Assembly: GCF_002214525.1 (NCBI RefSeq)
Contig: NZ_CP015104.1
Coordinates: 1,116,001-1,180,000, forward strand
Direction: 5' to 3'
DNA from: Thermococcus sp. P6
GTDB lineage: Archaea; Methanobacteriota_B; Thermococci; Thermococcales; Thermococcaceae
DNA: 64,000 bases
Shown here: positions 53,314 to 57,028 of the stretch, one piece after another
Position numbering within the stretch: the stretch's first letter is position 1
Layout: each line of letters starts with the position of its first letter
Program-made: the position numbers and the translations under genes
The notes under the pieces: generated by a model
The model's input: only the letters and a program-made list of their open reading frames with translations
Told to the model about the DNA's origin: nothing
The model's database searches: none

Positions 53314-54126
53314 TCAACCACCCATCGATTCCTCCAGCAGGGCGTTTAAAAGTTCAACGATCCCCTCGTGTATCCTCAGGCTTATACCGTCCACCGTGGG
53401 GGTCTGGTTCCGGGTTACCCCGTCTATGAGCCCGGACCTTGAGATGGTCCTTATGACCTCCCCCTCCTTCCAGTCGGGGATCAGTTTTCGACCGAACTCC
53501 AGAGAGGCCTGGGCTACGAGCCCGTAGGCGCCCCAGTTTGAGACCGCCGAAAGAACGAGTCCGTCGGTTTCAACGGTGCTCGCTATTTTCCTCCCGCGGG
53601 GGACGTGCCTCTCAACGAGCTCCCTGATCTTTCCCATCCCCGCCTCGTTTCCCCCGTCGCCTATTCCAATCGTGGGTATGCCAGCATCTCTCGCCTCGAG
53701 GATCGCACGGTCAAAGGTCCCCCGGGTTATCTCCGCCCCCGTCATCGAGTAGTACCTTCCGTCCTTCCCCCTGCCGGGGGTTTCCACGGCCACGACGAGG
53801 GAGTAATCGCTAACATCCGGCCCTTCCACGAAGCTCAGGTGAAACCGGTCGAGGGCTTCCCTCACCTCCTGGTAGGTGAGCACCTCCGCCCTTCCGCCGA
53901 GGTTCTCCACGGCCCTCGCTATGGCAAGCGCCCCCGGTGGTCCGTCGGTTTCCGCCCTCATCGTCGGGGGTATGGGAAAACCCGTTATGATCAAAACCCT
54001 CTCGTAATTGTCGAGGAGCATCTTCGCGGAATCGCGTAAGAAATCGGGATTATTTCTCCGGTAGTCGAGGTAAACCCTGAGTGTCCCTCGGTTACCGGCG
54101 TCCGTGTTGATGAGATGGGCTATCAT
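53314..54126 (-). CDS. DUF4392 / D-glutamate cyclase-like protein
   Basis: A 270-residue protein resembling the C-terminal domain of mammalian D-glutamate cyclase, which turns D-glutamate into 5-oxo-D-proline. Conserved blocks are RVLIITGFPIPP, AETDGPPGALAIARA, GIPTIGIGDGGNEAGMGK and ASTVETDGLVLSAVSNWG. The archaeal substrate is unknown. It starts 2 nt after the 58-residue gene ends. Confidence 0.82.
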   Translation of the reverse strand: MIAHLINTDAGNRGTLRVYLDYRRNNPDFLRDSAKMLLDNYERVLIITGFPIPPTMRAETDGPPGALAIARAVENLGGRAEVLTYQEVREALDRFHLSFVEGPDVSDYSLVVAVETPGRGKDGRYYSMTGAEITRGTFDRAILEARDAGIPTIGIGDGGNEAGMGKIRELVERHVPRGRKIASTVETDGLVLSAVSNWGAYGLVAQASLEFGRKLIPDWKEGEVIRTISRSGLIDGVTRNQTPTVDGISLRIHEGIVELLNALLEESMGG

Positions 54127-54128
54127 GC

Positions 54129-54305
54129 CTACTCAACCTCGTAGACCACTACCCTGACCTTCTTGCCCTTCAGGGCCTCCTTGAGCTTCCACCAGAGCTC
54201 CGTGGGTTCTTCACTCCTGTGGGTCAGCTCGTGGCCGTTTTCGAGCCTGACCTTTTTCTCCCCGTACCTCACGAAAACGCCTTCCTCATCGAACACCTTC
54301 CTCAT
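54129..54305 (-). CDS. Small operon protein (58 aa), unknown function
   Basis: A short gene in the gap between the HAD phosphatase and DUF4392. The protein begins RKVFDEEGVFVRYGEKKV, has LTHRSEEPTELWWKLKEAL in the middle and ends in a beta-like KKVRVVVYEVE. Its ATG overlaps the HAD stop as ATGA, and 2 nt separate it from the next start, so translation is coupled on both sides. No family is recognised. Confidence 0.75.
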   Translation of the reverse strand: MRKVFDEEGVFVRYGEKKVRLENGHELTHRSEEPTELWWKLKEALKGKKVRVVVYEVE

Positions 54306-54946
54306 GTTGCCCCCTCCACTATTTTTCTAAGCTCATGAAGGGTTCTAACCTCGTAATCGGCCATGTTGTAGCCCCTTTCTCCCTCCCGGTTTACCCATAC
54401 GGCCGTCATCCCGAGGTTCTTGGCCCCGTAAACGTCCTGACTGAGGGAATCTCCCACCATAATGGCCTCTTCGGGCTTCAATCCGAGGGCCTCAAGGGCG
54501 TACAGGAATATCTTCGGCTCCGGCTTTACGGAGTTGACGTCATCCCGGGTAACAACGACGTCGAAGTAATCCATCAGTCCGGTGAGTCTGAGCTTCAGCC
54601 TCTGGTATTCGGGCCCGCTGGTAACGACGCCGAGTCCGTATTCCTCCTCCCTGAGCCATTTCAGGACCGGAATCGTATCGGGGTAAACGTGGAGCTTCTG
54701 CGGGTAAGCCCTGAGCAGTTCCTCGTACCTGAGGTCCACCCCGAAGAGTTCGAAGAAGAAGTTCCAGTCGTGCCACTCGTAGGTGTCCCTCCTTCCAAGG
54801 AGCTCCCCGAGGAACCGCTTCCTCGCCTCTTCCCTGCTGATTCCAAACTTCCGGGATATCCTGTCGTAAACCTGTGGAAGGAAGAGCTGTATGAGAGGTA
54901 TCTCCGTCAGCAGTGTTCCGTCCACGTCGAAGAGAACCGCCTTCAT
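54302..54946 (-). CDS. HAD-superfamily hydrolase
   Basis: A 214-residue HAD phosphatase with a helical cap. Motif I is LFDVDGTLLTE, motif II VVTSGPEYQ, the Lys is in VNSVKPEPKIFLY and motif IV is VGDSLSQDVYGAKN. It belongs to the TIGR02253-like group; the substrate is unknown. It starts 1 nt after the FtsZ-like gene stops. Confidence 0.88.
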   Translation of the reverse strand: MKAVLFDVDGTLLTEIPLIQLFLPQVYDRISRKFGISREEARKRFLGELLGRRDTYEWHDWNFFFELFGVDLRYEELLRAYPQKLHVYPDTIPVLKWLREEEYGLGVVTSGPEYQRLKLRLTGLMDYFDVVVTRDDVNSVKPEPKIFLYALEALGLKPEEAIMVGDSLSQDVYGAKNLGMTAVWVNREGERGYNMADYEVRTLHELRKIVEGAT

Positions 54947-54947
54947 C

Positions 54948-55700
54948 CTACCATCTCCTTACGAGGAGGGCCAGTATCTCGACCCCTCTCCCCATGTCCT
55001 CGTCCGTTATTACGCCCCAGATGACGTCCTTCTCGGAGAGTATCTCCTGAAACCTCCCGAGGATCGAGTGGGCGTCCTTCAGGGGAAAGCTCGTTCCCAC
55101 CAGAATCCCCACGAGTCCCCGCTCCCAGATCCCCCAGTGCCACCTGAAGTCCACCTTCCTGAGGAGCCTGAGAATGCCCACGTTGCCGCCTTTTATGATG
55201 TTGAAGAGATCCGCGTAGTCGATGTTGACGAGCATCCGGGTTTCGAGGTAGTAGTGGAGCCGGGAGAACATCTCCGCGATGCTCTTTGAGGCCCCATCGA
55301 AGGCCTCCGACAGGGAAGCGTTTTCATCGATAAGGAAATCCCACAGGGAGTCATAAAACACCGTTTCAAAATCCCCGGCCCACGGAGGTTTCTTCTCGAC
55401 TACAAGTTCTTTCCCGGGGGTCAAAACGTAGGCGAGCTTTATCACTCCTGCCGGAACGCTCTCGACTATCAGCCTCTCGAGCTCGCGGTTCACTTCCGTG
55501 TCCTCGAAGACCAGCCAGAGGAAGCTCCCATCCGGAAGGCCTGAGATGAAGTTCCTCAGGCGATCCCCGTAGGTATCGGGCCGGAGGAGGTAATAGGCGG
55601 GGTTCACGGTTACCCTGACCACTCCATCGGCCCTTATGCCGTTGACCACGCGAGCGCCATTGTTCCCTATGCCCACAAAAATATGGGTAAAAGATCCCAT
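54948..55700 (-). CDS. Degenerate FtsZ/tubulin-superfamily protein
   Basis: A 250-residue protein I read as a shortened, divergent FtsZ relative. The N-terminus IFVGIGNNGARVVNG matches the first nucleotide-binding loop region. LVNIDYADLFNIIKGGNVGIL (key residues Asn159, Asp161, Asp164) matches the T7 synergy loop and following helix. GILVGTSFPLKDA and VIWGVITDEDMGRGVEI (about 199-241) match the C-terminal FtsZ domain. The GGGTGTG T4 loop is absent; its place, about residue 65, reads FEDTEVN. GTP binding as in FtsZ is therefore doubtful. ATG 55700 follows GGGGGG. It is second in the hxlAB operon. This assignment comes from motif reading only. Confidence 0.65.
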   Translation of the reverse strand: MGSFTHIFVGIGNNGARVVNGIRADGVVRVTVNPAYYLLRPDTYGDRLRNFISGLPDGSFLWLVFEDTEVNRELERLIVESVPAGVIKLAYVLTPGKELVVEKKPPWAGDFETVFYDSLWDFLIDENASLSEAFDGASKSIAEMFSRLHYYLETRMLVNIDYADLFNIIKGGNVGILRLLRKVDFRWHWGIWERGLVGILVGTSFPLKDAHSILGRFQEILSEKDVIWGVITDEDMGRGVEILALLVRRW

Positions 55701-55710
55701 GATGCCCCCC

Positions 55711-56931
55711 TTACTCGAGGGTCGCATGCTTCTTCCTCATATCCTTTTCGGTCTTCTGAAACGTTGCCATAAGGAGGGCTATGACGCCGTCCATGAACAC
55801 CATCGTGGAGTCCTCAAAGAGCGTCCCCATGGGGGCTATCCATTTGTATCTTGTGAGCATCTGGCGGGCTATGTAGTCGGTTGGAACATCTGATTTGGCC
55901 CTTCCGGGTATCTCCACCACGACATCGGCGAGCTTTCCAAGGGTTGAGTTCGAGTAGGAGGTTATCGCCACGACCTTTCCACCCTCCTTTTTGGCTATCT
56001 TCGCGGCGTCAACGATGCTGGTTGTTTCGCCCGAACCGCTGATGGCTATTAACAGGTCTCCCGCCTCAAAGGCCGGCGTTATGGTCTCGCCGACGACGTA
56101 AACGTTGAAGTCGAGGTGCATGAGACGCATCGCGAAGGCCTTACCCACGAGACCGCTTCTCCCGGCACCGTAAACGAATATCTTGTTCGCCCCTATCATA
56201 GCGTCGACGAAGCCGCGAACCTGTTCCATCTTTAACTTCTCGGCAACGCCCGCCACGTGCTCCGTTATGTCCCTCATGGCCTTCCTTATGGCCATCATGT
56301 ACTCCTCCCAGAACAGGTCTATTATCCTCCTGGTTACCTCCTCGGGATCCTTGGCCTTCGTTATGGCCCCGCCGACGATTATTATCGTTGCCCCGAGCTC
56401 GATGACCTTCGGGATGGTCTCAAGGTTCAACCCGCCGGCAACCGCAACCGGGACGTTAACCTCTTTGATTACCTTTTCGAGGTCTTCCAGCGGGTTTTTG
56501 CCCTGAGCCTGCTCGTCTATGCCCGTGTGGACGAGGATGTAGTGAACCCCCATCCTCTCGAGTTCCTTCGCCCTTTTGACCTTGTCCTTAACCCCGATGA
56601 GGTCCACCATAACCCTGATGCCGTACTTTCTGGCTACCTCAACGGCGTCCTTTATCGTCTTGTCATCTGCCACACCAAGGATCGATACAACGTCCGCACC
56701 GTGCCTCGCCGCCATTTCCACCTCGAGCGCTCCTGTATCCATCGTCTTCAGATCTGCGACGATCTTTCTGTCCGGAAAGCGTCTCTTGAGAAGCTCAACA
56801 GCACGCATGCCCTCCTTCTTAACCAGTGGGGTCCCGACCTCCAGCCAGTGAGCTCCACCACGGGCGGCTTTTTCCGCTATAGAAATGGCCTCCTCAACAT
56901 CGGTAAGGTCAAGGGCAACCTGAAGTATCAT
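55711..56931 (-). CDS. Bifunctional 3-hexulose-6-phosphate synthase / 6-phospho-3-hexuloisomerase
   Basis: A fused HPS-PHI enzyme of the ribulose monophosphate pathway. In Thermococcales it runs in reverse to make ribulose 5-phosphate from fructose 6-phosphate, releasing formaldehyde, and replaces the pentose phosphate pathway. The HPS part (about 1-210) has LQVALDLTDVEEA, IVADLKTMDTGALE and VAVAGGLNLETI. The PHI part (about 220-406) has the SIS fold with VYGAGRSGLVGKAFAMRL and LIAISGSGETTSIV. The 406 residues equal the characterised T. kodakarensis fusion. The frame extends to 57243, but ATG 56931 has GGAGGCGAGGAG before it. It heads the six-gene operon. Confidence 0.95.
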   Translation of the reverse strand: MILQVALDLTDVEEAISIAEKAARGGAHWLEVGTPLVKKEGMRAVELLKRRFPDRKIVADLKTMDTGALEVEMAARHGADVVSILGVADDKTIKDAVEVARKYGIRVMVDLIGVKDKVKRAKELERMGVHYILVHTGIDEQAQGKNPLEDLEKVIKEVNVPVAVAGGLNLETIPKVIELGATIIIVGGAITKAKDPEEVTRRIIDLFWEEYMMAIRKAMRDITEHVAGVAEKLKMEQVRGFVDAMIGANKIFVYGAGRSGLVGKAFAMRLMHLDFNVYVVGETITPAFEAGDLLIAISGSGETTSIVDAAKIAKKEGGKVVAITSYSNSTLGKLADVVVEIPGRAKSDVPTDYIARQMLTRYKWIAPMGTLFEDSTMVFMDGVIALLMATFQKTEKDMRKKHATLE

Positions 56932-56973
56932 CTCCTCGCCTCCGAAGGGTTTTCGTTTTAGCCTTAAGGGCCT

Positions 56974-56986
56974 ACTTTTTAAAGTT
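56974..56986 (-). promoter_or_regulatory. TATA promoter of the HPS-PHI operon
   Basis: Minus-strand aaactttaaaaag-type element about 44 nt before ATG 56931, leaving a leader of about 20 nt. The remaining gap to 57070 holds only the divergent promoter. Confidence 0.45.
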
Positions 56987-57028
56987 TGGTGTTGAAATTT
57001 AACAGGAACATGGCAATAACACCGGCCA

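Follow-up and report, generated by a model that had tools for sequence, protein, structure and literature searches.

What can a protein with only one half of an FtsZ active site do in a genome that also encodes FtsZ1, FtsZ2, CetZ, and SepF? The question is raised by a gene on the reverse strand of the window analyzed here, a 64,000-nucleotide stretch of the 1.52 Mb genome of Thermococcus sp. P6, a member of the Thermococcales, an order of heat-loving archaea. The sequence-only reading of this stretch had described the gene product as a degenerate FtsZ/tubulin-like protein of 250 residues that keeps the T7 loop and has lost the T4 nucleotide loop. The open reading frame (positions 54948 to 55700, stop codon included) bears out that length, and we refer to the protein as FZL. 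Its ATG, at 55700, is preceded by a G-rich stretch and lies 10 nt beyond the stop codon of the upstream HPS/PHI gene; a longer call from 55727 is unlikely, since most orthologs align from the methionine at 55700. In the alignment, the C terminus falls at strand S10 or just beyond it. The features of the locus are collected in Table 1.

Table 1. The FZL gene, its conserved or altered sites, and its neighbors in the window
Feature	Position in window	Strand	Basis
FZL gene, FtsZ-derived, without nucleotide pocket	54948..55700	-	ORF; FtsZ matches by profile, predicted structure, and fold search; conservation in Thermococcales
Residues 10-15 (GIGNNG), T1 remnant; G10 and G12 invariant, G15 in 47/48	55656..55673	-	Alignment, conservation
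Residues 65-71 (FEDTEVN) in place of FtsZ T4 GGGTGTG; N71 invariant, residue 66 always E/D	55488..55508	-	Alignment, conservation
Residues 90-118 (AYVLTPGKEL...PWAGDFETVFYDS), S5/T5/S6/T6 positions	55347..55433	-	Conservation
Residues 154-165, T7 loop; N159, D161, A163, and D164 invariant in 48/48	55206..55241	-	Conservation, both models
Residues 185-195, nearly invariant Trp-rich loop FxWHWGIWxRG replacing FtsZ helix H9	55116..55148	-	Alignment
Residues 225-233 (DVIWGVITD), FtsZ strand S9 motif (archaeal IWG)	55002..55028	-	Profile, alignment
HPS/PHI fusion (3-hexulose-6-phosphate synthase/6-phospho-3-hexuloisomerase), upstream of FZL	55711..56931	-	Pfam OMPdecase/HUMPS 7e-44, SIS 2e-21; synteny
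HAD-superfamily phosphatase, downstream, about 1 nt after FZL stop	54302..54946	-	Pfam HAD 2e-31; synteny in all loci examined
D-glutamate-cyclase-like gene (GLUCM-like_C), beside HAD in most loci	53314..54126	-	Pfam 2e-66

Searched as a single sequence, FZL hit the FtsZ2 of its own genome (E = 5e-5) and, more strongly, FtsZ proteins from other Thermococcales (best E = 1.9e-8). A profile of 48 nonredundant orthologs matched FtsZ in the PDB, with Methanocaldococcus FtsZ as the best hit (MjFtsZ1, E = 7.9e-8), and a search for placement in any other family left FtsZ as the only significant one. Compared by hhalign, the FZL family scored 97% against FtsZ2 (7e-11) and 91% against FtsZ1 (1.5e-7), with no similarity to CetZ detected, and a CetZ origin was rejected on this basis. 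Divergence is nonetheless large: identity to the FtsZ2 consensus is only about 19% over aligned columns, a Pfam search with the window protein returned zero matches, and the same protein fails the curated ftsZ model in NCBIfam (TIGR00065; 16.9 bits versus a cutoff of 295). Weak matches to TIGR00065 were found in 47 of the 48 family members and to the FtsZ_C domain in 32. DotB, ILEI, DUF4962, and other Pfam/NCBIfam hits lay below cutoff in a few members only and were set aside as chance.

Structure prediction agreed with these profiles. The AlphaFold model of the window protein (pLDDT 86, pTM 0.86) and that of a 47%-identical ortholog (pLDDT 88; pTM of the two models, 0.86 to 0.87), which were built from nearly one alignment and thus are not independent, both contain all major elements in FtsZ order: a Rossmann-like N-terminal domain, the long helix H7, and the C-terminal domain. 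When the models were searched against the PDB with Foldseek, every one of the best 50 matches for each was an FtsZ, with E values between about 1e-11 and 1e-9 and TM 0.64 to 0.77. The rmsd to these structures was 5 to 6 Å, and therefore loops or domain placement differ from FtsZ. Together, the profiles and the predicted models, in which the tubulin fold is present, place FZL in the FtsZ/tubulin superfamily. The three FtsZ-matching blocks on which the sequence-only reading rested are present as it described them, with GIGNNG corresponding to T1, VNIDYAD to T7, and the C-terminal block VIWGVITDEDMG to S9-T10 in the alignment. The first of these holds up through the full-length alignment and the structure model, but alone it is a weak match (1.4 bits).

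FZL is colinear with FtsZ1 and FtsZ2 through S1-H1-S2, S4-H4-S5-S6, H7, T7, H8, S7-S8, H10, and S9-S10, and it shares the IWG motif in S9. In contrast to these proteins, it lacks T3, T4, the T5/H5 Glu and Arg, the guanine Asp, H9, and the tail, and its 250 residues compare with about 410. When FZL is aligned to FtsZ2, the N-terminal extension is missing, as are S3-T3, T4, part of T5-H5, H9, and the entire C-terminal tail, so that the linker and tail through which FtsZ binds SepF/FtsA are not present. Loss of the T4 motif GGGTGTG, already apparent in the window protein, extends throughout the 48 orthologs; the losses of T3, the T5/H5 contact residues, H9, and the whole tail had gone unmentioned. 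The T5/H5 Glu and Arg are deleted or replaced, and S/A/T/G stand in for the guanine-binding Asp in H7 throughout the family. In Staphylococcus aureus FtsZ, key interface residues are N208, D210, and D213 in T7 and D46, Q48, and R143 on the nucleotide side (PMC8936486). The D46 position of FZL is occupied by A/G/T/S and the Q48 position by Tyr (46/48) or Leu; the positions of R143 and of T3 (G72) are deleted, and that of the H1 Asn (N25) is Arg or Lys in most members. Contacts made by T2, T3, T4, and H5 on the upper face of FtsZ are thus gone or changed. From the alignment and both models we infer that FZL neither binds GTP in the FtsZ manner nor forms filaments of its own.

Such losses could mean that FZL is a duplicated FtsZ gene decaying without function. 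The missing nucleotide signature would fit that idea, as would a second, broken copy in one genome (G069:C2:360947-361698), which has an in-frame TGA and falls into two overlapping pieces while an intact copy resides on another contig. However, our search tally found FZL in 91 of 94 Thermococcales genomes and in 73 of 74 high-quality ones, 48 residues are invariant across the order, and dN/dS values of 0.02 to 0.15 between close species indicate purifying selection, by which the pseudogene explanation is refuted and decay becomes scarcely credible. The word "degenerate" consequently suits the nucleotide pocket but not the remainder of the protein, which is under strong purifying selection, is near-universal in the order, and carries new invariant sites. 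The tally of 91 includes two genomes (G056 and G061) that give only a weak FtsZ match. Apparent absences look like assembly gaps in fragmented assemblies: in G063 and G061 a contig end truncates HPS/PHI, in G056 the neighboring HAD gene is truncated likewise, and in G049 and G035 neither neighbor gene was closely matched either. Among the matches listed from 396 archaeal genomes in 216 genera, a broad but not exhaustive sampling beyond the order, no full-length FZL occurred outside Thermococcales; all full-length matches listed, plus two partial copies, belonged to that order, and matches listed elsewhere were all weak, covered the C-terminal part only, and lay within FtsZ-sized frames. Profile similarity alone suggests an origin from FtsZ2. 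In a FastTree phylogeny (231 columns), FZL sits near the base on a long branch of 2.2 substitutions per site (support, 0.84), and a position beside FtsZ2 is not firmly indicated.

In contrast to the nucleotide side, T7, the loop by which FtsZ acts on the GTP of an adjoining subunit, has been kept. FZL residues N159, D161, and D164 are the equivalents of S. aureus N208, D210, and D213, and the sequence-only reading had singled out exactly these three for a conservation check. The motif NxDxxD proved invariant in 48 of 48 nonredundant Thermococcales orthologs; with 48 of 250 positions invariant in total, the chance that three positions named in advance would all be invariant is about 0.7%. FZL VNIDYAD aligns with FtsZ2 VNIDFAD and is FtsZ2-like in having A163 and I/V160, where FtsZ1 has mostly N, and L, respectively. 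Because T7 is among the least confident stretches in both models, the constraint on it is more likely functional than structural. Comparison with the tubulins (alpha, LNVDLTE; beta, LNADLRK, with Lys at the third position) points in the same direction. The T7 loop of beta-tubulin faces GTP that is not hydrolyzed, whereas that of alpha-tubulin acts on GTP that is. Every FZL sequence retains Asp where beta-tubulin has Lys, which favors a catalytic role.

We therefore considered what a protein with T7 alone might bind. In our preferred reading, to which we assign a probability of about 0.45, FZL would be a dead-end cap at the minus end of FtsZ filaments, docking by its T7 loop on a genuine FtsZ subunit at the nucleotide face and acting as a GTPase-activating protein (GAP) in trans. 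The most likely partner would be FtsZ2, since FZL copies its T7. The nucleotide face is exposed only at the minus (top) end of a filament, and FZL would accordingly cap there as a terminal subunit. With D161 and D164 kept, it would be expected to complete the GTPase site of the subunit on which it docks. FtsZ filaments are taken to grow at the end that exposes T7 (PMC11938149, PMC8936486), which makes the face available to FZL that of the minus end, and a binder of this N-terminal face is expected to promote nucleation and stabilization (PMC11938149). A capping FZL may thus nucleate or stabilize FtsZ filaments at the minus end. The T7-only anatomy also argues for docking on the nucleotide face over severing, which the sequence-only reading had entertained along with capping and pairing. 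Several points weigh on the proposal. Conservation of N159 and D161 might reflect a need to shape T7 or to cap helix H8, and contacts outside T7 need not be preserved, given that FZL and FtsZ2 share only about 19% identity and differ in H9 and the S7-S8 region. We know of no measurement of the kinetic polarity of archaeal FtsZ.

The same contact surface could have the opposite outcome. FZL might sequester free FtsZ, its T7 binding GTP-FtsZ monomers, triggering hydrolysis, and releasing FtsZ-GDP, thereby lowering the amount of polymerizable FtsZ; this would be SulA-like in effect although exerted on the other face. The anatomy is identical to that expected of a cap, FZL has no C-terminal tail to hold it at the membrane, and a binder of the N-terminal face inhibits only when it sequesters (PMC11938149). 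Such a mechanism requires tight binding and a high copy number, however, whereas the T7 contact of FtsZ is weak and cooperative, and we consider it unlikely.

The opposite face of FZL is, judging from its conservation, rebuilt rather than blank, since 13 of the 29 residues at positions 90 to 118 are invariant and a Trp-rich loop stands in the place of H9. In FtsZ, S5-T5-S6-T6 borders the nucleotide; the same positions in FZL carry the family pattern AYVLTPxKEL, PxWA, and FETVFYDS. Conservation on both faces would be expected if FZL were a minority subunit inside FtsZ filaments, where it would introduce one nucleotide-free interface and change curvature or stability. Yet with the contacts of T2, T3, T4, and H5 lost or changed, the known docking mode would be closed to a second FtsZ, and we regard incorporation within the filament as very unlikely. 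Since the top-face residues are as conserved as T7, the main function of FZL could also lie there. Under the capping proposal, FZL would be controlled by an additional partner or ligand bound at residues 90 to 118 and the Trp-rich loop.

The genomic context of FZL is metabolic, not divisional. HPS/PHI, FZL, and the HAD phosphatase occur in the same order and on the same strand in each of the six genera, in most cases with almost no gap between them; at two loci (L060 and L065), about 855 to 866 bp separate HPS/PHI from FZL, which are nearly adjacent elsewhere. With the HPS/PHI start taken as the ATG at 56931, a stretch resembling an archaeal TATA box (TTTAAAAAG, window positions 56970 to 57000, reverse strand) lies about 50 nt upstream of where HPS coding begins, and this putative promoter element could drive the HPS/PHI-FZL-HAD unit. 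This arrangement, together with the invariant residues of the 90-118 region, is what would be expected if FZL had left cell division to become a ligand-binding or enzyme-regulating protein on an FtsZ fold, linked to HPS/PHI and the HAD phosphatase in ribose/hexulose phosphate metabolism, with the rebuilt cleft as its active site. But such a role leaves the invariant T7 trio, in a loop poorly ordered in the models, without explanation, and in genomes this compact, conserved gene order also extends to apparently unrelated genes (HD domain, nusA-like, and aspS). We therefore hold a purely metabolic function to be improbable, to about the same degree as sequestration.

For the capping proposal, coexpression with HPS/PHI would tie the action of FZL to sugar-phosphate supply. 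In its fullest form, FZL would be a dedicated minus-end cap and trans GAP, controlled through its top face and coexpressed with HPS/PHI, and a prokaryotic counterpart in role of gamma-tubulin. The combination is doubtful, if a little less so than either sequestration or a metabolic role. Gamma-tubulin, a tubulin-fold protein dedicated to minus-end capping and nucleation, operates within a ring complex and binds GTP, for which FZL lacks a pocket; the likeness would be a functional analogy only.

FZL differs from the tubulin-superfamily members and FtsZ regulators already described. CetZ belongs to the same superfamily and is present in FZL-bearing genomes but keeps T4, and its T7 reads TLDASD. 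FtsZl1 and FtsZl2 (Makarova and Koonin 2010; PMC2875224) are, like FZL, divergent relatives of FtsZ. They keep the GGGTG(S/T)G loop, the T4 motif by which they were sought, and the T6-H7 region of FtsZl1 was not confidently identified (PMC2875224). FZL is the reverse case, with T7 kept and T4 lost, and a search by that motif would miss it because T4 is gone. Its 250 residues, absent T4, and metabolic context likewise speak against assigning it to FtsZl1 or FtsZl2, which keep T4, FtsZl1 being a large coiled-coil protein or found in a vWA/PK context. Two Thermococcales genomes do contain FtsZl1-like frames of about 1130 amino acids (L149 in G004 and L150 in G037; length by tubulin-profile search, of which 770 to 840 amino acids lie in the sequence retrieved). 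They contain GLGGGTGSG and extended coiled-coil-like helical regions. These sporadic proteins are distinct from FZL and may correspond to an additional divergent protein noted in T. gammatolerans and AM4 (PMC9856176). The archaeal tubulin superfamily in Thermococcales has been described as comprising FtsZ, CetZ, and occasional divergent members (PMC9856176). Chloroplast ARC3 is partly of FtsZ origin, binds FtsZ, and inhibits its assembly (PMC5855766); it would be comparable to FZL in these respects but is a plant fusion protein with a MORN region. The antagonists MciZ, SulA, MinC, and MipZ cap or sequester FtsZ at a polymerization face (PMC11938149). These proteins, none of them FtsZ derived, act on the C-terminal (plus, T7/H10) face, whereas FZL has the FtsZ fold and would target the N-terminal (minus) face.

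No published description of FZL was found in the open-access journal papers searched, and an arCOG covering the protein may well exist. We regard FZL as an undescribed, order-specific paralog and as a fourth, previously unlisted tubulin-superfamily protein in Thermococcales. To our knowledge, few FtsZ regulators are known in archaea that divide with FtsZ. Structurally known bacterial FtsZ antagonists act on the plus-end (T7) face, and a protein with a T7 face only would act at the other end of the filament. With FZL, a natural protein presents one half of the FtsZ active site apart from the other, so that the GAP role of T7 becomes testable in trans, in an order that includes genetically tractable species.
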